DNA from: Cupriavidus alkaliphilus
GTDB taxonomy: Bacteria > Pseudomonadota > Gammaproteobacteria > Burkholderiales > Burkholderiaceae
Direction: 5' to 3'
Assembly (NCBI RefSeq): GCF_900094595.1
Contig: NZ_FMAD01000001.1
Coordinates: 682,001-746,000, forward strand
DNA length: 64,000 bases
Shown piece by piece: positions 44,173 to 52,339 of the stretch. The translations under genes and the position numbers were made by a program. The notes under the pieces are model-generated. The model saw only the letters and a list, made by a program, of their open reading frames with translations, ran no database searches and was not told the DNA's origin. How positions within the stretch are numbered: position 1 is the stretch's first letter; each line of letters starts with the position of its first letter.

Positions 44173-44826
44173 ATGACTGAATTCCTTCCGCCGTGGCCGT
44201 TGCTGACCGCCTTCGTGGTGGCCAGCCTGGCGCTGGCGATCACGCCGGGCCCGGCCGTGGTCTATATCGTCACGCGCACGCTGGCGCAGGGCCGGCAGGC
44301 CGGGCTGGCCTCGATCGGCGCGGTGGCGCTGGGCAACCTGGGCAATGCCATCGGCGCCTCGCTGGGGCTGGCGGTGCTGTTCTCGGTCTCGGCGCTGGCG
44401 TTCACGGTGGTCAAGTACGCCGGCGCGGCCTACCTGATCTGGCTGGGCCTGCGCGCGCTGCGTGGCGCGGGCACCAGCGCCGCCGGCGGCGCCCCGGAAG
44501 TGTCGCCGCGCAGCCTGCGCCAGGTGGTGCGCGATGGCTTCGTGGTGGCGCTGCTCAACCCCAAGACCGCGATCTTCTTCGCGGCCTTCCTGCCGCAGTT
44601 CATGAACCCGGAGGGTTCGGCGCTGGCGCAGAGCCTGGCGCTGGGCGTTGCCTTCGTGCTGATCGCCGCGACCACCGACGCCTGCTACGTGATGGCCGCC
44701 GCCGCGGTCATGCCGGCGCTGCGCCGCGCCGGCCGCGCGCGCGCAATGGGCCGCTACCTGACCGGCGCGGCCTTTATCGGGCTGGGAATCTTCACGGCGG
44801 CGTCGGGCTCGCGCGCGCCGAAGTAG
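44173..44826 (+). CDS. LysE/RhtB family amino acid exporter
   Basis: A 217-residue membrane protein with six hydrophobic helices. The opening has the family mark ALAITPGPAVVYIVTRTLAQ, then GLASIGAVALGNLGNAIG, and the loop FVVALLNPKTAIFFAAFLPQ. The start at 44173 has GAGG upstream. It exports amino acids such as homoserine, threonine or lysine; specificity is unknown. It converges on the GST operon, and a second LysE gene lies inside that operon. Confidence 0.85.
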   Translation: MTEFLPPWPLLTAFVVASLALAITPGPAVVYIVTRTLAQGRQAGLASIGAVALGNLGNAIGASLGLAVLFSVSALAFTVVKYAGAAYLIWLGLRALRGAGTSAAGGAPEVSPRSLRQVVRDGFVVALLNPKTAIFFAAFLPQFMNPEGSALAQSLALGVAFVLIAATTDACYVMAAAAVMPALRRAGRARAMGRYLTGAAFIGLGIFTAASGSRAPK

Positions 44827-44841: not shown

Positions 44842-44870
44842 AACTGCCGCGGCTCAGCGCAGCGGCAGTT
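44842..44870 (-). terminator. Terminator of the eight-gene leftward operon
   Basis: Inverted repeat AACTGCCGC / GCGGCAGTT; on the minus strand it is followed by TTTTTT. The upstream arm lies within the last codons of the GST gene. Confidence 0.85.
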
Positions 44871-45498
44871 CCAGGATGCCGCCCGCGGCGGGGCGGGCGC
44901 GCATGGCGTTGAGCCAGCGCTCGAGCTCGGGGCGCGGCTGGTGCCGGCGCGGCAGTCCCATCCAGCGGTGCGCGGCGCAGGCCAGCGAGATGTCGGCCAT
45001 GGTGAAACGGTCGCCGCCGATGAATTCGCGCCCGGCCAGCGCCTGGTCCAGCAGCGCGGCGAGCGGCTCGGTGCGCTCGCACGAGGCCTCGATGGCGGCC
45101 GCATCGCGCTCGGCCTCGGGCTTGCGCACCAGGTTCAGGAACGCCGTCACCATCGCCGGGCTGAAGGCGGTGGTCTGCCAGTCCATCCAGCGGTCGGCCG
45201 AGGCGCGCGCCTTTACGTCCTCGGGCCACAGCGTGCCCTCGCCGTAGCGCGCGCACAGGTAGCGCACGATCGCGTTGGATTCCCACAGCACGAAGGGCTC
45301 GCCGCCGACATCCGTGCCGCGGAAATCCTCGATCACGGGGATCTGGCGGTTAGGGTTCAGGCGCACGTAGGCCTCGGTGTCGAGGTCGCCCTTGGTCACG
45401 CCGATATCGACGCGCTCGTGGTCCAGGTGCAGCTCGCGCGCGCACCAGACCACCTTCTGCACGTTGATGGAGGAAAGCCGGCCCCAGATACGCAACAT
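44854..45498 (-). CDS. Glutathione S-transferase family protein
   Basis: A 214-residue protein. The N-terminal thioredoxin-like domain (MLRIWGRLSSINVQKVVWCA, NPNRQIPVIED, LWESNAIVRYL) binds glutathione; the C-terminal helical domain contains RFTMADISLACAAHRWM. The SSINVQKV segment places a Ser at the usual catalytic position. It could conjugate or reduce an electrophilic metabolite. It is the last gene of the MocR-facing operon, 37 bases after the aminotransferase. The start was set at 45498, after a GGGAGA site. Confidence 0.85.
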   Translation of the reverse strand: MLRIWGRLSSINVQKVVWCARELHLDHERVDIGVTKGDLDTEAYVRLNPNRQIPVIEDFRGTDVGGEPFVLWESNAIVRYLCARYGEGTLWPEDVKARASADRWMDWQTTAFSPAMVTAFLNLVRKPEAERDAAAIEASCERTEPLAALLDQALAGREFIGGDRFTMADISLACAAHRWMGLPRRHQPRPELERWLNAMRARPAAGGILELPLR

Positions 45499-45535
45499 GT
45501 CGTCTCCCAAGTGAAGTGCGCCCCTTGCCGTGGCG

Positions 45536-46720
45536 TCAGGCCGCGCGCGGCTGCCGCGCCGCGGCAATGGCTTCGCGGAACAGCTCGCCGAGGATCGCCA
45601 CGCCTTGCTCGATGCGCTCCGCCGGCACCGTGACAAAGGCCAGGCGCAGCGCGTTGCGCTTCGGGTTGTTGGCGTAGAACGGCGCGCCCGGCACGTAGGC
45701 GACGTTGCGCTTCACCGCTTCTTCCAGGATCACCATGCTGTCCAGGCCCTCGGGCAGTTCCATCCAGATGAACATGCCGCCTTCGGGCGCATTCCAGCTG
45801 ACGCCCTCGGGCATGTGGCGCTTCAGCGCATCCAGCATGGTCTGGCACTGCTTGCCGTAGAGCTCGCGGATGGTCGGGATGTGGGTGTCGAGCAGGCCGT
45901 CGCGCACGGTCTCGTAGGCCACGCGCTGGGTGAAGGTGGGCGTGTGCAGGTCCGAGGCCTGCTTGGCCTGGCACAGCTTGAAATGCAGCTCGGGCGGGGC
46001 GATCACGTAGCCCAGGCGCATGCCGGGGGCCAGGATCTTCGAGAACGAGCCCATGTAGATCACGCCGTCGGGGTTCATCGACAGCAGGCTCGGCAGCTGG
46101 TCGCCGGTGTAGCTGAGCGCGCCGTACGGGTCGTCCTCGACCAGCAGCACGCCCAGTTGCTGCGCGCGCGCCACCAGCGCCTGGCGGCGCTCGAGCGGCA
46201 GGCGGCGCCCGGTCGGGTTCTGGAAGTTGGGCAGGGCGTACAGGAAGCGCGCGCCGGCGGTCAGCTCGGGCGTCAGCGCCTCGGGCAGCAGGCCCTTGTC
46301 GTCGCTGGGGATCGAGACGAATTCCGGCTCGAACAGCGAGAACGCCTGCAGCGCGCCGAGGTAGCTGGGGGTTTCCACCATCACCTTGCTGCCCGGGTCG
46401 ATCATCACCTTGGCGATCAGGTCCAGCGCCTGCTGCGAGCCGGTGGTGATCAGCACGCGCTCGACCGCCACGTCATGGCGCTTGGCGACGAACTCGCGCA
46501 GCGGCAGGTAGCCTTCGGTCGCGGCGTATTGCAGGGCCGCCTGCGGGTTGTCGGCGAAGACGCGGGCCGTCGCGGCTTCCATCGCCGCTACCGGGAACGA
46601 GGCCGGCGACGGCAGGCCGCCGGCGAACGAAATGACTTCCGGACGCTCGGTCACCTTCAGGATTTCGCGGATGGCCGAGCTGGTGAGTTGCTGCGCCCGG
46701 CGGGAAATGGCCCATTTCAT
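45536..46720 (-). CDS. PLP-dependent aminotransferase, fold type I
   Basis: A 394-residue enzyme of the 2-aminoadipate/aromatic aminotransferase-like group. The PLP lysine is K228 in GSFSKILAPGMRLGY. The segments FAGGLPSPASFPV, YAATEGYLPLREFVA and PNFQNPTGRRLPLERR are typical of the LysN and MocR-catalytic subgroup, so it resembles the effector domain of the regulator across the operon. It transfers an amino group to 2-oxoglutarate or another keto acid. The true substrate is unknown. Confidence 0.88.
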   Translation of the reverse strand: MKWAISRRAQQLTSSAIREILKVTERPEVISFAGGLPSPASFPVAAMEAATARVFADNPQAALQYAATEGYLPLREFVAKRHDVAVERVLITTGSQQALDLIAKVMIDPGSKVMVETPSYLGALQAFSLFEPEFVSIPSDDKGLLPEALTPELTAGARFLYALPNFQNPTGRRLPLERRQALVARAQQLGVLLVEDDPYGALSYTGDQLPSLLSMNPDGVIYMGSFSKILAPGMRLGYVIAPPELHFKLCQAKQASDLHTPTFTQRVAYETVRDGLLDTHIPTIRELYGKQCQTMLDALKRHMPEGVSWNAPEGGMFIWMELPEGLDSMVILEEAVKRNVAYVPGAPFYANNPKRNALRLAFVTVPAERIEQGVAILGELFREAIAAARQPRAA

Positions 46721-46781
46721 GATGTGTCTCTAGTGGTCTGCGGTAATACTGGGGAGAGCGGCCATGGCAACGGCCGGCCGC

Positions 46782-47111
46782 TCAGTCAACGATAAACAGT
46801 CTGGCACCCTTGGGCGAAGACGAACGGTGCGCTTCCGCCTGGTCGGCGACCTGGTAGCTGGTGCCCGCGCCGAGCACGAACTGCCGGCCGTCTTCCAGCT
46901 CGGTATGCAGCTCGCCTTCCAGCACGAACAGGATATGGCCCTTGCTGCACCAGTGGTCGGCCAGGTAGCCGGGCGAATATTCGACCATGCGCACGCGGAT
47001 GTCGCCGAACTGGCGCGTGCGCCAGGTGGCCTCGCCGTGCTCGCCGGGATGGCGCGTCGGCGCGATCGCCGCCCAGTCGGTGGTGCCGAAGGGCAGGTTG
47101 TCGATCCGCAT
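46782..47111 (-). CDS. DHCW-motif cupin protein
   Basis: A 109-residue single-domain cupin. The motif ADHWCSKGH (52-59) followed by FVLEGELHTELEDG is the hallmark of the DHCW-motif cupins; H53 and H59 with the downstream Glu are likely metal ligands. Its enzymatic role is unknown; it may bind or isomerise a small acid. It lies 61 bases upstream of the aminotransferase start and seven bases behind RidA. Confidence 0.82.
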   Translation of the reverse strand: MRIDNLPFGTTDWAAIAPTRHPGEHGEATWRTRQFGDIRVRMVEYSPGYLADHWCSKGHILFVLEGELHTELEDGRQFVLGAGTSYQVADQAEAHRSSSPKGARLFIVD

Positions 47112-47118
47112 GCAGTCT

Positions 47119-47586
47119 TCAGCCCTGCACTTCGGCGATCAGCTCGATCTCGACGCAGGAACCCAGCGGCACCTGCGCCACGCCGAACGCGCTGCGCGCG
47201 TGCTTGCCCTTGTCGCCGAAGACTTCGGCCAGCAGCTCGGAGGCGCCGTTGGTGACCAGGTGCTGCTCGGTGAAGTCGGTGGTCGAATTGACCAGGCTCA
47301 TCACCTTGACGATGCGGGTGACGCGGTTCAGGTCGCCGACATGCGCATGCAGCGTCGCCAGCAGGTCGATGGCGACGGCGCGGGCGGCGGCCTTGCCGGT
47401 TTCGGTGTCGATGTCCTGGCCCAGCTTGCCGGTCCATACCTTGCCGTCCTTGCGCGCGATATGGCCGGACAGGAACACGGTATTGCCGGTCTGCGCGGCC
47501 ATCACATAGGCGGCGGCGGGGGTGCTGACGGCCGGCAGTTCGATGCCGAGGCGGGCAAGGGTATCGTAGACCGAGGTTTGGGACAT
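47119..47586 (-). CDS. RidA-like enamine/imine deaminase
   Basis: A 155-residue member of the long YjgF subfamily. AAAYVMAAQTGNTVFLSGH, then DLLATLHAHVGDLNRVTRIV and HARSAFGVAQVPLGSCVEIE are family marks; the Arg in HARS aligns with the catalytic Arg of RidA and the Glu of VEIE is conserved. RidA hydrolyses reactive 2-aminoacrylate and related enamines. The subfamily is less studied than true RidA. The context with a PLP enzyme and AlaX supports an enamine role. Confidence 0.85.
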   Translation of the reverse strand: MSQTSVYDTLARLGIELPAVSTPAAAYVMAAQTGNTVFLSGHIARKDGKVWTGKLGQDIDTETGKAAARAVAIDLLATLHAHVGDLNRVTRIVKVMSLVNSTTDFTEQHLVTNGASELLAEVFGDKGKHARSAFGVAQVPLGSCVEIELIAEVQG

Positions 47587-47597
47587 GTAGGCTCCAG

Positions 47598-48596
47598 TCA
47601 GTGAATGCGTCCGGGAAGGATCGGTGAGGGTTCCGGGGCAGGTGCGGATTGCTGCACGGCGGCGCGGCGGCCCAGGGCCACGACGGCAATCACCGCCACC
47701 GCGAAGGCGATGGTGGCAGCGTCGAGCGGCTCGGACAGGATCAGCGCGCCGCCCGCCAGCGTCAGGAACGGCTGCAGCAATTGTATCTGGCCGACGCGGG
47801 CCACGCCGCCTTTTGCCAGGCCGGCGTACCAGAAAAGAAAGCCCACGAACATCGAGAACACCGAAACATAGGCCATGCCGCCCCAGGCCCGCGGCGACGC
47901 CGCGGCAATCGCCGGCAGGTCGCGCAGCGTCAGCCAGGCCACCACCGGCACCAGCACCGGCAGCGATACCACCAGCGCCCAGCTGATGGTTTCCAGCCCG
48001 CCCAGCTCGCGCGACAGCTTGCCGCCCTCGGCATAGCCGAGCGCGCCCAGCAGCACCGCGCCGAACAGGAACCAGTCGGCGTGCTGCAGGCCGCCGGCGC
48101 CCTGCCATACGGCAAAGCCGACCACCAGCGCGCTGCCGGCTACCGCCGACAGCCAGAACGCCGGCGACGGCCGCTCGCGCCCGAACCACGCGGCGAACAC
48201 CGCGGTCGCCAGCGGCAGCAGGCCGATCACGATGGCGCCGTGGCTGGCCGGCACCTCGCGCATGGCCAGCGAAGAAAACAGCGGAAAGCCCGCCACCACG
48301 CCCAGCGCGGTCACGGCCAGCCGCGCCCATTGCCCGCCGCGCGGGCGCCGGCCCGCGCGCAGCGCGCCGCGCCAGGCCAGCAGCGCCAGCGCCAGCAGCG
48401 CGGCCAGCACGGCCCGCGCCAGCGCGACGAAGATCGGGTCCAGTTCGGCCACCGCCATGCGCGTGAACGGCAGCGTCTGGCTGAAGATAGCCACGCCGGT
48501 CAGGCCCAGCAGCATGCCGCCGGAGGCCGGCACGGCGGCAGCCGGAGGTGTCGTCGATGACAAGGGGGTTTGCGGAGCGGGGCGGCTGGCGGGCAT
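47598..48596 (-). CDS. EamA/DMT family exporter
   Basis: A 332-residue membrane protein of the drug/metabolite transporter superfamily, with ten hydrophobic helices in two EamA repeats (FSQTLPFTRMAVAELDPIFV in the first, GLAKGGVARVGQIQLLQPFL in the second). The first 28 residues are low in complexity and cytoplasmic. Relatives export amino acids or cysteine pathway metabolites. It is followed by RidA after 11 bases. The start at 48596 was chosen because the preceding frame lies within the neighbouring LysE gene. Confidence 0.85.
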   Translation of the reverse strand: MPASRPAPQTPLSSTTPPAAAVPASGGMLLGLTGVAIFSQTLPFTRMAVAELDPIFVALARAVLAALLALALLAWRGALRAGRRPRGGQWARLAVTALGVVAGFPLFSSLAMREVPASHGAIVIGLLPLATAVFAAWFGRERPSPAFWLSAVAGSALVVGFAVWQGAGGLQHADWFLFGAVLLGALGYAEGGKLSRELGGLETISWALVVSLPVLVPVVAWLTLRDLPAIAAASPRAWGGMAYVSVFSMFVGFLFWYAGLAKGGVARVGQIQLLQPFLTLAGGALILSEPLDAATIAFAVAVIAVVALGRRAAVQQSAPAPEPSPILPGRIH

Positions 48597-48634
48597 GGTT
48601 GGCCTCTGTGTTGTCAGGGGTGTCGATGGCGTGG

Positions 48635-49285
48635 TCAGGCAGCCGCGGGCACGCCGGGACGGGCCCCGAGCGCAATCCACAGCGCCGTCAGCGCCAGCGC
48701 CGCGCCCATGGCGCGGTTGAACCAGCGCACGCGCTCGCCGTGCTGCAGCCACTGCCGCAGCGACGCGCCCACCGCGCCATAGACGCCGTTGCTGACGAAG
48801 CCCAGCACGCCGAACACGCCGCACACCAGCAGCACGCGCTGCACCGGCGACGACGCGCCCGCCATGTATGACGCCGCCACCGCCAGCGCCAGCATCCACG
48901 CCTTGATATTGGCGTACTGCAGCGCCGCCGACTGCCACACGCTGAGCGGGCGCAGCACCTGCTTTTCGGCCAGCGCCGTGCTGCGCGCGATTTTCCACGC
49001 CAGCCACAGCAGGTAGGCGACGCCGGCCGCGTGCACCGCGGCGGCCAGCGCGGGCTGGCCCAGCACCAGCGCGCCCACGCCCAGCGCGCACAGCGCCAGG
49101 ATGCTGGCAAAGCCGAAGGCGACGCCGACGCAGTGCGGCAGCGTCGCGCGCAGGCCGAAGTTGGCCCCGGTCACCGCGGCGATGGTGGTGTTGGGTCCCG
49201 GGGTGAACAGGCCGACCGTCAGCAGCGTCAGCAGCGCCGCGAACTGCGCCGCGCTCAGGCCGGTGAGCAGTGCGGAAGCGGTCAT
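48635..49285 (-). CDS. LysE family exporter (operon member)
   Basis: A 216-residue six-helix exporter. LTVGLFTPGPNTTIAAVTG and GANFGLRATLPHCVGVAFGF are the LysE/RhtB N-terminal motifs; WQSAALQYANIKAWMLALAV is the conserved loop. Its ATG overlaps the AlaX stop by four bases, indicating translational coupling. Together with the EamA exporter the operon contains two efflux carriers of different families, probably for one amino acid and its derivative. Confidence 0.88.
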   Translation of the reverse strand: MTASALLTGLSAAQFAALLTLLTVGLFTPGPNTTIAAVTGANFGLRATLPHCVGVAFGFASILALCALGVGALVLGQPALAAAVHAAGVAYLLWLAWKIARSTALAEKQVLRPLSVWQSAALQYANIKAWMLALAVAASYMAGASSPVQRVLLVCGVFGVLGFVSNGVYGAVGASLRQWLQHGERVRWFNRAMGAALALTALWIALGARPGVPAAA

Positions 49286-49995
49286 GCGAACGCCACCGCC
49301 ACGCGCCGGTTGGTGCGGCTTTTCTTTTCGATCCTGGTCACCACCACCGCGCCGATCTCGCCGGTGTTGGCCACGTGCGTGCCGCCGCACGGCTGGCGGT
49401 CGACGCCGGGGATCTCGATGATGCGGATGCTGGCCGTGCCCGCCGGCGGCGCGGCGCCGATGGTGCGCACCAGGTCGGGTTGCGCGGCCAGTTCCTGCGG
49501 CGTGATCAGGGTGGTGCGCACCGCGGTGTTGGCGCGGATCAGCGCGTTCAGGCGCTCGGTCAGGTCGGCCTTGTCGAGCGTGGATTCGGGCAGGTCGAAG
49601 TCGATGCGCGCGGCATCCGGCGAGATGCCGCAGCCGGTCACCGGCACCGGGATCAGCGAGCCCAGCAGGTGCAGGCAGGTGTGCAGGCGCATCAGCCGGT
49701 GGCGGCGCTCCCAGTCGATCGCCACGGTGACGCGCTCGCCGACGCGCGGCAGCGGCGCCCCGGCCGCCGGCACATGCAGGATGCGGCGGCGGTCGTCGGC
49801 GTAGAGCGTGTCGACGATGGCCACGGTGCGCCCGTCGGCCAGCGCCAGCGTGGCGGTGTCGCCCGCCTGGCCGCCGCTGCGCGCGTAGCACACGGTCTCG
49901 TCGAGCTCGATCCCTTCGGCGCTGGCGGCCACTACGGTGGCGGTGCAGTGGTCGAGGTACGGTTCTTCGTCGAAACGCTTGCGGGTGGCGGACAT
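49282..49995 (-). CDS. Alanyl-tRNA editing protein AlaX
   Basis: A 237-residue free-standing editing domain that removes wrong amino acids (Ser, Gly) from alanine tRNA. The zinc-binding residues are present: H105 and H109 in RLHTCLHLL, and C203 and H207 in QPCGGTH. YARSGGQAGD near 37-46 is the related N-terminal glycine motif. It lacks a synthetase body. Its place in a metabolic operon suggests it guards against mischarging when the operon substrate accumulates. The stop overlaps the LysE start. Confidence 0.9.
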   Translation of the reverse strand: MSATRKRFDEEPYLDHCTATVVAASAEGIELDETVCYARSGGQAGDTATLALADGRTVAIVDTLYADDRRRILHVPAAGAPLPRVGERVTVAIDWERRHRLMRLHTCLHLLGSLIPVPVTGCGISPDAARIDFDLPESTLDKADLTERLNALIRANTAVRTTLITPQELAAQPDLVRTIGAAPPAGTASIRIIEIPGVDRQPCGGTHVANTGEIGAVVVTRIEKKSRTNRRVAVAFA

Positions 49996-50026
49996 CGGGG
50001 GCTCCTGGGGGCTTATGTGGGGATGG

Positions 50027-50704
50027 CTAGCGCAGGGTGCGGATGCCCTGCGCCGTTTCGATCTCGGCCATCAGGCCGGGCGGGCCGTCGTCCTGCTCCA
50101 CCGCGAGCAGGTGGTCGGCACCCAGCCAGGCCAGCCCCTGGCGCAGCAGCTCGGCGCGCGGATGGCGTGCGCACAGCCGGCGCAGCGCCAGGTCCTGCCG
50201 CGGCAGGCTGGCGCCGGGGGCGGGGGTCACGTCCCACTGGATCAGGCTGGGCAGCGCGCCGTCGCCGGCGCTGCCGGCTTCGCCGGGCCAGGCCGGCAGG
50301 CTGCCGTCGGCCGGGACGGTGATGCGCCAGTGCAGGCTGCCGCGGCTCATGGGGATGACGGGGGCGATGCGGTCGGGATACTGGGCCTGCCAGCGGCTCA
50401 GGTCGGCGGGCCGTTCCACGCGCGCGGCCCAGTGCAGCAGGAACGGGCCGTCGCGCAGGCGCTGCTGTACTGCATCGCTGTCCAGGCCGAACCAGCGCGG
50501 CCGTGCCGGCGCGGCGGCGGCCGGATCGATCGCGATCACTTCCAGGTAGATGCCGCCGAACAGGCCCAGCACGCGGTTGTGCGTGCCCATGGCCGCATGC
50601 GCGCCGCCGCCCCGGGGCGCAATGCCCAGCACGCCGGCAACGTAGTCCGTGCCGGCGTCGAGGTCTGCGGCGGCAACGACGAGGTGATCGAGGGCTAGCT
50701 TCAT
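50027..50704 (-). CDS. Glyoxalase-like VOC-fold protein
   Basis: A 225-residue protein with MKLALDHLVVAAADLDAGTD at the start, GVLGIAPRGGGAHAAMGTHN, and FGGIYLEVIAIDP, the metal-binding repeats of the glyoxalase-like VOC fold. It may isomerise or cleave a reactive metabolite. It is the first gene of the leftward operon; its start is 84 bases from the divergent MocR regulator gene, so both promoters share the GTACAGT repeats. Confidence 0.8.
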   Translation of the reverse strand: MKLALDHLVVAAADLDAGTDYVAGVLGIAPRGGGAHAAMGTHNRVLGLFGGIYLEVIAIDPAAAAPARPRWFGLDSDAVQQRLRDGPFLLHWAARVERPADLSRWQAQYPDRIAPVIPMSRGSLHWRITVPADGSLPAWPGEAGSAGDGALPSLIQWDVTPAPGASLPRQDLALRRLCARHPRAELLRQGLAWLGADHLLAVEQDDGPPGLMAEIETAQGIRTLR

Positions 50705-50710
50705 CTTGGC

Positions 50711-50739
50711 TTGATGGTAGACAAGGTACTCGGTACAGT
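50711..50739 (+). promoter_or_regulatory. Candidate MocR promoter TTGATG-N17-TACAGT
   Basis: The -35 TTGATG (50711-50716) and -10 TACAGT (50734-50739) are 17 bases apart. The -10 lies inside the first GTACAGT repeat, so binding of the regulator would affect its own expression. Confidence 0.55.
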
Positions 50740-50774
50740 ACCGGTACAGTTGAGCGGATCGTCTTCAGTACAGT
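50732..50774 (+). promoter_or_regulatory. Phased GTACAGT repeats, probable MocR operator
   Basis: GTACAGT occurs at 50733-50739, 50744-50750 and 50768-50774, spaced 11 and 24 bases apart, about one and two helical turns. The first is part of the 11-bp palindrome GGTACAGTACC. MocR regulators often bind direct repeats between divergent genes. Confidence 0.65.
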
Positions 50775-50788
50775 TGCAGGAGCAGCAC

Positions 50789-52339
50789 ATGGATGCCCAT
50801 ACCAGCAAGGACGGCGCCGGCGGAAACAGCGCCGCCGCGGCCAGCCAGAAGGATAGCCGAGGTGGCGCGCCAGCCGCAGCCGGCACCGCGCCGGCGCGCG
50901 CGCTGCAACTGGTGCTGCCGTCCACGGCGCGGCTGCCCGACCCGATCCCGTCGGCGCAGATGACGCTGGTCGAGCAGCTGACCGAATGGGCGCGCATGCG
51001 CATCGACGAGCGCGTGTTCCGCGCCGGCATGCGCATGCCGTCGATCCGGCAGCTGGCGCAGGAGAAGGGCATCTCGCGCTTCACCGTGGTCGAGGCCTAC
51101 GAGCGGCTGGTGGCGCTGGGCTACCTGGAATCGCGCCGCGGCTCGGGCTTCTACGTGCGCGAGCGGGCCCCGGCCGCGCCGGCGGCGCCGGTCTCGCGCG
51201 ACGCGCCGGCGGCGCGCAAGATCGACGTGACCTGGCTGCTGCGCAGCATGTTCCATACCGCCGAAGCGCACAAGGCGCCGGGGCTGGGCTTCCTGCCCAA
51301 CGACTGGCTCGACGGCGAGCTGATCGCCAGCGCGCTGCGCGGGCTTGGCCGCCAGCCCGGCAACCATTTCCTGGCCAGCGGCACGCCGCAGGGCTTCCTG
51401 CCGCTGCGCCAGCAGCTGCGCACCCGGCTGGAAGAGCTGGAAATCCGCGCCGGCGCCGAGCAGATCGTGCTGACCTCGGGCATCACCCAGGCGCTCGACC
51501 TGATCGCGCGGCTTTACCTGCAACCCGGCGACGCGGTGCTGGTGGGCGACCCGGCGTGGTTCGTGATGTTCGGCCGCTTTGCCGCGCAGGGCGCGCAGGT
51601 GATCGGCGTGCCCTACACCGGCGAAGGGCCGGACCTGGAGGCGCTGGAGCGCATCGTGCAGGCGCGCCGCCCCAGGCTGTTCGTGATCAACTCGGTGCTG
51701 CACAACCCGACCGGCACCTCGCTGTCGGCCGCCAAGGCCTTCCAGCTGCTGCGCATGGCCGAGCAGTACGACTTCCTGATCGTCGAGGACGACATCTACT
51801 GCGACCTGTGCCCGCCCGGCCATGCCGCCACCAGGCTGGCCAGCCTGGACCAGCTGCGCCGGGTAATCTACCTGGGCAGCTTCTCCAAGACGCTGGCGGC
51901 CAACCTGCGCGTCGGCTTTGTCGCCGCGCACCCGGAGACGGCCGCGGCGCTGACCGACAGCAAGCTGCTGGCGGGCCTGGCCACGCCCGAGATCAACGAG
52001 CGGGTGCTGTACAAGGTGCTGACCGAAGGGCATTACCGCAAGCATGTCGAGCGCGTGCGCACCCGGCTGGACCGTGCCCGCGACGACACCCGGCGCGAGC
52101 TGGAACGGCTGGGCCTGCGCCTGTTTCCCGGCCAGCACGCCGGCATGTACCTGTGGGCCGACACCGGCCGCGATTCCAACGCGATCACCACCGCCGGCCA
52201 TGAAGAAGGCTATCTGTTCGCCCCGGGCAGCTTGTTTTCGCCGTCGCAGATGCCATCCGGCTGGATGCGCTTCAACGTCGCCAGCAGTGGCGACCCCGAC
52301 ATGCTGCGCTTCCTGGCGCGGCAGCTCGAACGGCTGTAG
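50789..52339 (+). CDS. MocR-type GntR-family regulator with PLP aminotransferase domain
   Basis: A 516-residue regulator. After a low-complexity leader, residues 65-140 form a winged HTH (MRMPSIRQLAQEKGISRFTV, EAYERLVALGYLESRRGSG). The rest is a fold-type I aminotransferase domain with the PLP lysine K367 in YLGSFSKTLAANLRVGF. It should sense an amino acid through PLP. The ATG at 50789 has AGGAG eight bases before it. It is divergent from the VOC-AlaX-LysE-EamA-RidA-cupin-aminotransferase-GST operon. Confidence 0.9.
   Translation: MDAHTSKDGAGGNSAAAASQKDSRGGAPAAAGTAPARALQLVLPSTARLPDPIPSAQMTLVEQLTEWARMRIDERVFRAGMRMPSIRQLAQEKGISRFTVVEAYERLVALGYLESRRGSGFYVRERAPAAPAAPVSRDAPAARKIDVTWLLRSMFHTAEAHKAPGLGFLPNDWLDGELIASALRGLGRQPGNHFLASGTPQGFLPLRQQLRTRLEELEIRAGAEQIVLTSGITQALDLIARLYLQPGDAVLVGDPAWFVMFGRFAAQGAQVIGVPYTGEGPDLEALERIVQARRPRLFVINSVLHNPTGTSLSAAKAFQLLRMAEQYDFLIVEDDIYCDLCPPGHAATRLASLDQLRRVIYLGSFSKTLAANLRVGFVAAHPETAAALTDSKLLAGLATPEINERVLYKVLTEGHYRKHVERVRTRLDRARDDTRRELERLGLRLFPGQHAGMYLWADTGRDSNAITTAGHEEGYLFAPGSLFSPSQMPSGWMRFNVASSGDPDMLRFLARQLERL

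Follow-up and report, generated by a model that had tools for sequence, protein, structure and literature searches.

We propose that an eight-gene block of Cupriavidus alkaliphilus belongs, as one unit, to a Burkholderiales regulon in which MocR controls the export and clearance of an amino acid, a reading to which we give a probability of roughly 0.6. The block occupies 44842..50704 of the stretch analysed here, 64,000 nucleotides that we call the window (contig NZ_FMAD01000001.1, positions 682,001 to 746,000), and faces a divergent gene for a MocR-type regulator. The original prediction, made from the sequence alone, had described the same genes as a possible response to a serine-like amino acid or its reactive enamine. 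Export and clearance as the general task are better supported than our guess that the substrate is of the serine/cysteine/threonine type. The features are as follows, with bit scores given against model cut-offs; G, C and L numbers are our handles for genomes, contigs and loci, and g numbers those for genera.

50789..52339, plus strand: MocR-type regulator, divergent (PF00392 54 bits, cut-off 27, and PF00155 120 bits, cut-off 19.7, in one protein)
50766..50773, minus strand: third, upstream operator box CTGTACTG, of weaker consensus across sites
50731..50750, minus strand: predicted MocR operator, two direct boxes ACTGTACCGGTACTGTACCG in the operon-strand reading (gap alignment and genome pattern scan)
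50714..50719, minus strand: predicted -10 hexamer TACCAT, separated from the operator core by 11 bp (a spacing constant over 114 distinct sites)
50027..50704, minus strand: VOC-fold protein (Glyoxalase_3), operon gene 1 (PF13468 133 bits, cut-off 25)
49282..49995, minus strand: free-standing AlaX-type tRNA editing protein (PF07973 above cut-off; presumed zinc ligands conserved)
48635..49285, minus strand: LysE-family exporter (PF01810 above cut-off)
47598..48596, minus strand: EamA/DMT-family transporter (PF00892 105 bits, cut-off 28; the start may be ATG 48515)
47119..47586, minus strand: predicted Rid1-like imine deaminase (PF14588 and PF01042 above cut-off; R131 and E146 conserved)
46782..47111, minus strand: DHCW-motif small cupin, a variable accessory (NF038084 179 bits, cut-off 70; Pfam 24.3, below 27.2)
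45536..46720, minus strand: PLP aminotransferase, LysN/KAT-II-like (PF00155 117 bits, above cut-off)
44854..45498, minus strand: GST-fold protein, last operon gene (GST_N and GST_C Pfam models above cut-off)
44846..44863, minus strand: terminator-like hairpin overlapping the GST stop (hairpin scan)
L262:8232-8855 (G000:C21, about 70.7 kb): second LysE-family exporter under a predicted operator, 38% identical to the operon LysE

Translation of the open reading frames and Pfam and NCBIfam scans confirm the eight packed leftward genes and the divergent regulator. The intergenic gaps, from VOC to GST, are 31, -4 (an overlap), 38, 11, 7, 61 and 37 bp; because none exceeds 61 bp and one pair overlaps, the genes fit a predicted operon. 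All of the proteins except the cupin pass Pfam cut-offs. The single terminator proposed at the end of the unit can be seen as a hairpin at 44863-44846, but the four such hairpins in the window, against 2.0 (sd 2.0) in shuffles, are not clearly above chance. The regulator has the MocR/GabR architecture, an N-terminal GntR helix-turn-helix followed by a C-terminal aminotransferase-like domain. Its nearest NCBIfam model is PdxR (NF052282), which it matches at 253 bits, below the equivalog cut-off of 320. Its frame is open from TTG 50711; ATG 50789 is the likely start, because the operator lies between the two.

The operator was found by aligning the gaps of MocR operons by eye, which gave a conserved direct repeat on the operon strand, ACTGTAYCGGTACTGTACCG, with a third box upstream. 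We predict an operator of tandem CTGTAYYGG boxes 11 bp apart. Over 114 distinct sites this consensus has the form of MocR/GabR direct-repeat operators, with helix-turn spacing and an internal TGT. Among the 114 distinct exact sites, a TAnnnT hexamer lies 11 bp downstream of the 18-bp core, its T, A and T kept at 99, 98 and 98%. A consensus scan of the window gave no sigma-70-like promoter, and there is no TTGACA-like hexamer at -35; with a 17-bp spacer, the second box would sit at that position. Because the -10 spacing is fixed and a box would take the -35 position, this layout suggests an activator that touches polymerase at -35. The predicted -10 is also close to the VOC start codon (window 50704-50719). 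In Cupriavidus the start codon of VOC would fall within a few bases of where transcription is predicted to begin, and the operon message may be nearly leaderless.

Where this operator recurs is our best evidence for function: the regulon appears to track the exporter and aminotransferase genes rather than a place in the genome. The C. alkaliphilus genome (6.1 Mb) holds three matches at up to three mismatches, with 0, 1 and 3 mismatches respectively. The one-mismatch site, the only other site at this level or better, ends 56 bp before a second LysE-family gene (207 aa), so that the exporters gain a member in trans under a matching operator, which supports a central role for them. Yet another LysE-type gene adjoins this second exporter at L262. 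At up to one mismatch, 100 of 150 Burkholderiaceae genomes yielded 127 sites, and the reversed-pattern control yielded 11. For 116 of the 127 sites, with 11 elsewhere, what follows downstream is a MocR unit, the gene of a LysE-family exporter or that of the aminotransferase: 58 stand before a MocR-divergent unit (14 in Cupriavidus, 13 in g24, 13 in g10, one in G004, eight in two small-genome genera and nine where MocR faces LysE), 50 before a LysE-family gene for which the stretch read shows no divergent MocR, and eight before an aminotransferase alone. The 97 exact sites all fall into these classes. The 11 stray sites all carry one mismatch, and their number equals that of the control matches. 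This classification was read from loci for 103 sites and placed by coordinates for 24, all among the 58; the stand-alone LysE loci were mostly 3 kb, such that a MocR farther than about 1.5 kb would escape. At one of them (L307), a convergent MocR-like gene is found some 1 kb past the LysE gene.

Across the order, 14 of 300 genomes carry 16 exact sites, six of which overlap the Burkholderiaceae survey, and the control gave 0. Fifteen of the 16 precede regulon genes; the remaining one (G201) precedes none that we recognise. At six of the loci newly read in this wider survey, the LysE of the MocR operon is nearer to the stand-alone LysE than to the operon LysE of the window (44-60% identity). As the in-operon LysE here resembles the stand-alone gene, the exporter appears to stay under the operator wherever it is located. 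Such recurrence makes it very improbable that the block is a loose neighbourhood of no common function, held together by its position next to htpG: the mosaic gene content, and the fact that htpG is the neighbour in several families, agree with that explanation, but position cannot explain an operator that marks exporter and aminotransferase genes elsewhere in the genome too. A further LysE-family gene, RhtB-like, runs convergently toward the operon end at 44173-44826 and is also present at L031-L034 and L119, in several Cupriavidus. The genome-wide pattern scan gave no operator match at this gene, and we left it uncounted.

Co-occurrence in other genomes, one of the checks attached to the original prediction, gave a positive result. 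By tblastn (110 loci and 104 larger loci), the block adjoining htpG recurs across Cupriavidus and its core is found in other families as well. Gene content forms a mosaic. Elsewhere in the Burkholderiales, MocR, exporters of the LysE and EamA types and the aminotransferase are shared, often along with Rid and VOC; AlaX, cupin and GST vary, and the cupin was matched in three of 12 larger named Cupriavidus-type loci spanning its site (the 12 take in L048, titled Ralstonia sp.). The sister genus g24, which we guess to be Ralstonia, has a close AlaX beside MocR and EamA in 13 of 13 sampled genomes, and five larger loci from it read MocR facing AlaX-EamA-Rid-aminotransferase-GST. Layouts from other families, by our guess Oxalobacteraceae, Comamonadaceae and Alcaligenaceae, include MocR facing (DUF2917 or threonine dehydratase)-LysE-EamA-Rid-aminotransferase, MocR facing LysE-EamA-aminotransferase-(GST)-PhzF-(VOC)-(threonine dehydratase) and, in minimal form, MocR facing EamA-LysE. 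The aminotransferase gave 42 matches in 41 of 399 Burkholderiales genomes. Thirty-eight of these loci were examined (the window itself, one short locus and two not fetched were left out), and 21 have a divergent MocR. With it occur EamA in 16 loci, LysE in 15, PhzF in 12, Rid in 11, VOC in nine, threonine dehydratase in nine, GST in six and AlaX in one. Four further loci have only Rid beside the aminotransferase, and one has LysE-EamA-PhzF with no MocR match. A class-wide search of 185 genomes returned a single close aminotransferase relative from outside the Burkholderiales; its neighbour looks MOSC-like by eye, and no MocR match accompanies it. Our gene calling is incomplete in low-GC loci and in some others; in one set it missed AlaX in 10 of 33 loci, so the neighbour counts may be low.

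Exporters and an aminotransferase are the targets that stay constant, and so an excess amino acid is the simplest signal for MocR. The individual proteins offer several pointers to its nature. The Rid protein, originally labelled RidA, is better described as Rid1-like: it scores 38 bits against the RidA archetype (TIGR00004, cut-off 106), and its nearest named solved structures are the Rid1 proteins PA0814 and ACIAD3089, the very best match, 3d01, being uncharacterised. The Rid1 assignment follows from nearest named relatives and the catalytic Arg. R131 and E146, the catalytic Arg and Glu, are each conserved in at least 95% of 71 rows (residue counts here and below exclude rows under 85% coverage). 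Sequence likeness of the aminotransferase to LysN/KAT II is clear, at 361 bits against the Thermus 2-aminoadipate aminotransferase LysN. For both LysE proteins the top-scoring model is NF007653, an EamB-type exporter of cysteine and O-acetylserine; at 72 bits the operon protein and at 85 bits the second lie far below its cut-off of 193. Threonine dehydratase is a classical enamine producer, and the representative we scanned from the sister operons reaches 516 bits for the PRK06110 equivalog (cut-off 317). No serine/threonine dehydratase lies in the operon of this genome; PALP-family genes sit elsewhere, and the two PALP-gene neighbourhoods inspected showed no operon link. The GST protein is nearest to the GSH-dependent disulfide bond oxidoreductase model PRK13972, at 69 bits against a cut-off of 332. 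The AF2 model of the VOC protein, weak at a mean pLDDT of 62, matches VOC structures; it gives the VOC fold only, and we dropped a function drawn from it.

Our best guess, which we put forward tentatively, is a substrate of the serine/cysteine/threonine type, because of the Rid1-like protein, the threonine dehydratase of sister operons, the LysE model and the cysteine synthase neighbours of AlaX relatives; these are several lines, none decisive. The earlier idea of a serine-like amino acid or its enamine is retained in part: the Rid Arg and Glu are kept and nine sister operons carry threonine dehydratase, but no result names serine.

The original prediction drew in part on AlaX, and here it has to be revised. 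Within the loci examined, AlaX belongs to the operon only in Cupriavidus and one sister genus, and three of 14 Cupriavidus genomes lack it or carry a broken copy; we rejected it as the heart of the system. The protein itself looks intact as an AlaX-type editing domain. H105, H109, the Cys and His of CGGTH, and G41, G42 and Q43 are each kept in at least 95% of 106 rows; the HxxxH and CxxxH residues we take to be zinc ligands. It scores 178 bits against the AlaXM equivalog model (NF040865, cut-off 300), and its closest named relative, from C. neocaledonicus, is 97% identical. A tree of 81 rows (rows under 40% identity or 85% coverage excluded) places operon AlaX in one clade of 47 with support 100/99, made up of 21 Cupriavidus, 13 g24 and 13 Achromobacter sequences, the last nested among Cupriavidus with modest support (84/74). 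VOC and AlaX are adjacent in 13 of 13 Achromobacter loci, with no MocR match in the stretch covered. We considered this pair as a trans member of the regulon and rejected it: upstream of VOC in 14 loci (the 13 of Achromobacter and L196), the best operator match is 16/21, in one locus, and the others are at most 15/21, about shuffle level. Since Achromobacter is nested in the clade and shows no operator at these loci, the VOC-AlaX pair was apparently transferred between genera and retained independently of the regulon.

More distant AlaX relatives bear on the same protein. Zooshikella and an Osedax symbiont have one (42% identity) divergent to a MocR-like gene (BLAST, read by eye), on long branches in the tree, and the AlaX-MocR pairing may have arisen more than once. 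Others adjoin cysteine synthase (cysK) in four loci (L071 and its near-copies L076-L078) or a sulfurtransferase-like gene (L071 and L080), names again read by eye; these neighbours (L071, L076, L077, L078, L080) hint at a serine/cysteine link for AlaX generally. A g24 genome has a second, distant AlaX (42%) at L129:8227-9885, with an EamA/DMT-like gene upstream on the same strand, as read by eye.

We propose the following course of events. Some MocR proteins respond to an amine. MocR proteins hold pyridoxal 5'-phosphate (PLP) and control PLP, GABA and taurine genes (PMC5320631). The PLP-bound regulator of the block would react with the amino acid and bind the direct-repeat boxes, the promoter-proximal copy of which would occupy the -35 position, and would activate transcription from the -10 placed 11 bp downstream, as the fixed spacing suggests. 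The operon LysE and EamA, together with the trans LysE-family exporter under the matching operator, would then expel the amino acid, which the aminotransferase and, in sister operons, threonine dehydratase would convert. Imine or enamine by-products would be hydrolysed by the Rid1-like protein, with VOC, GST, cupin and PhzF as auxiliary enzymes. AlaX, as a lineage-specific add-on, may remove mischarged serine or an analogue from tRNA-Ala during amino-acid excess.

Several findings weigh against the export-and-clearance regulon. At three mismatches the operator pattern is rarer in its own genome than the reversed control (3 against 14), and weight can be given only to sites with 0 or 1 mismatch; the surveyed genomes are related, and site counts are not independent events. 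Gene content is loose: VOC is missing in three of 14 Cupriavidus genomes (G069, G107, G145) and intact AlaX in three others (G079, G115, G138), 12 of the 38 loci hold a solitary aminotransferase and no MocR, and EamA homologues have no nearby MocR match in 14 larger loci (tblastn). None of 40 aminotransferase, Rid or EamA genes without a MocR neighbour has an upstream operator match above 16/21, the small-genome genera being the exception, and the Achromobacter VOC-AlaX pair has no recognisable operator. Activation rather than repression is deduced from spacing alone, no result directly points to any one substrate, and membership of the LysE or EamA family does not by itself prove amino-acid export. 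Finally, five operons of a small-genome Burkholderiaceae genus (L313, L358, L360, L363, L365) contain an FMN_bind_2 (PaiB-like) gene, one scanned (PF04299, 211 bits) and four assigned by 52-68% identity to it. An FMN-binding split-barrel fold suits vitamin B6 metabolism. The MocR operons of L358 and L365 also contain a DJ-1/PfpI gene.

The FMN_bind_2 genes speak for a rival account, a vitamin B6 homeostasis regulon of the PdxQ kind, in which MocR would sense PLP and the exporters would move B6 vitamers or PLP-reactive amines. PdxQ regulons combine DMT or LysE transporters, aminotransferases, GloA and PhzF-like genes with pdxO/pdxH (PMC5320631), and PdxR is the model nearest to our regulator. 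However, the targets at most operator sites are exporters and the aminotransferase, and pdxST, pdxK and pdxH were not recognised at any, a weak point in that genes were called by likeness to the query set and a few Pfam scans. We consider the B6 account unlikely, although it is the strongest competitor to export and clearance.

More improbable still is a defence against a toxic serine- or alanine-like antimetabolite from plants or competitors, with AlaX as tRNA proof-reader in the manner of CtdA for canavanine. Pseudomonas canavaninivorans and Rhizobium leguminosarum do have a free-standing editing gene next to their operon for canavanine degradation (PMC10018355), and both the conserved AlaX zinc ligands and the MocR-like neighbour in Zooshikella and the Osedax symbiont would fit. 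Yet only one of the 21 MocR-aminotransferase loci has AlaX (the window and G026 lie outside that count), the gene is lost within Cupriavidus, and the regulon core seems too widespread for a niche toxin.

A fuller version of the export-and-clearance regulon is possible, though we hold it with less confidence than the substrate guess. It would be a Burkholderiales-wide, undescribed regulon in which a PLP-MocR senses a serine/cysteine/threonine-type amino acid or a toxic analogue and in response switches on two or three exporters together with transamination and imine hydrolysis, and to which one lineage recruited AlaX. Were this true, it would mean metabolite-responsive transcriptional control of a free-standing AlaX, and the system could show whether enamine clearance by Rid and tRNA editing by AlaX are wired to amino-acid overflow. 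The sharp operator, the fixed promoter layout and exporter targets at two places in the genome make discovery of the MocR ligand direct. Many MocR regulators are without a known ligand; the 2016 survey assigned roles to 38 of 86 MocR groups (PMC5320631).

Escherichia coli EamA and EamB, exporters of cysteine and O-acetylserine, belong to the two transporter families that stand side by side here, and NF007653 is the best model for both LysE proteins; the difference is that their scores lie far below its cut-off, short of orthology with EamB. The claim that no described system has such a set proved too strong. The MocR regulons predicted by Suvorova and Rodionov (2016; PMC5320631), mainly PdxQ and groups of unknown function, resemble ours in their MocR regulator, in operators built from direct repeats spaced by one or more helix turns, and in gene content: RidA-family members in five regulogs, transporters of the DMT and LysE/YggA kinds, aminotransferases, GloA, PhzF and threonine dehydratase. 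Unlike the Cupriavidus operon, the main text of that survey has no match for alanyl-tRNA, AlaX, cupin or glyoxalase, and its sections covered here do not describe the present operator or the trans LysE gene; the present MocR group may already be listed in its tables S1b/S3.

The Rid1 proteins PA0814 and ACIAD3089, reported to deaminate 2-aminoacrylate in vitro, share the catalytic Arg with the operon Rid; the part of PMC5619798 covered does not place them in a MocR operon with exporters. The canavanyl-tRNA deacylase CtdA resembles AlaX in that its gene, too, encodes a free-standing tRNA editor and is linked to an operon for clearing an amino acid, but it is a B3/4-domain protein that acts on tRNA-Arg and is physiologically important (PMC10018355), whereas AlaX here is optional. 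Niehaus 2015 (PMC4433059) describes gene clusters in which RidA, and less frequently Rid1, occurs with aspartate aminotransferase and enamine-forming PLP enzymes; the word 'transporter' is absent from its main text. PMC4944035 concerns YczE and PMC7221256 another aminotransferase-Rid operon. The literature searched contained no match to the operator in three spellings and, going by titles and abstract starts, no paper besides PMC5320631 describing such gene content. Already known are predicted MocR regulons of similar gene content (PMC5320631) and the clustering of Rid with aminotransferases (PMC4433059); the operator, the trans LysE gene and the AlaX-containing version were not found in the literature searched.

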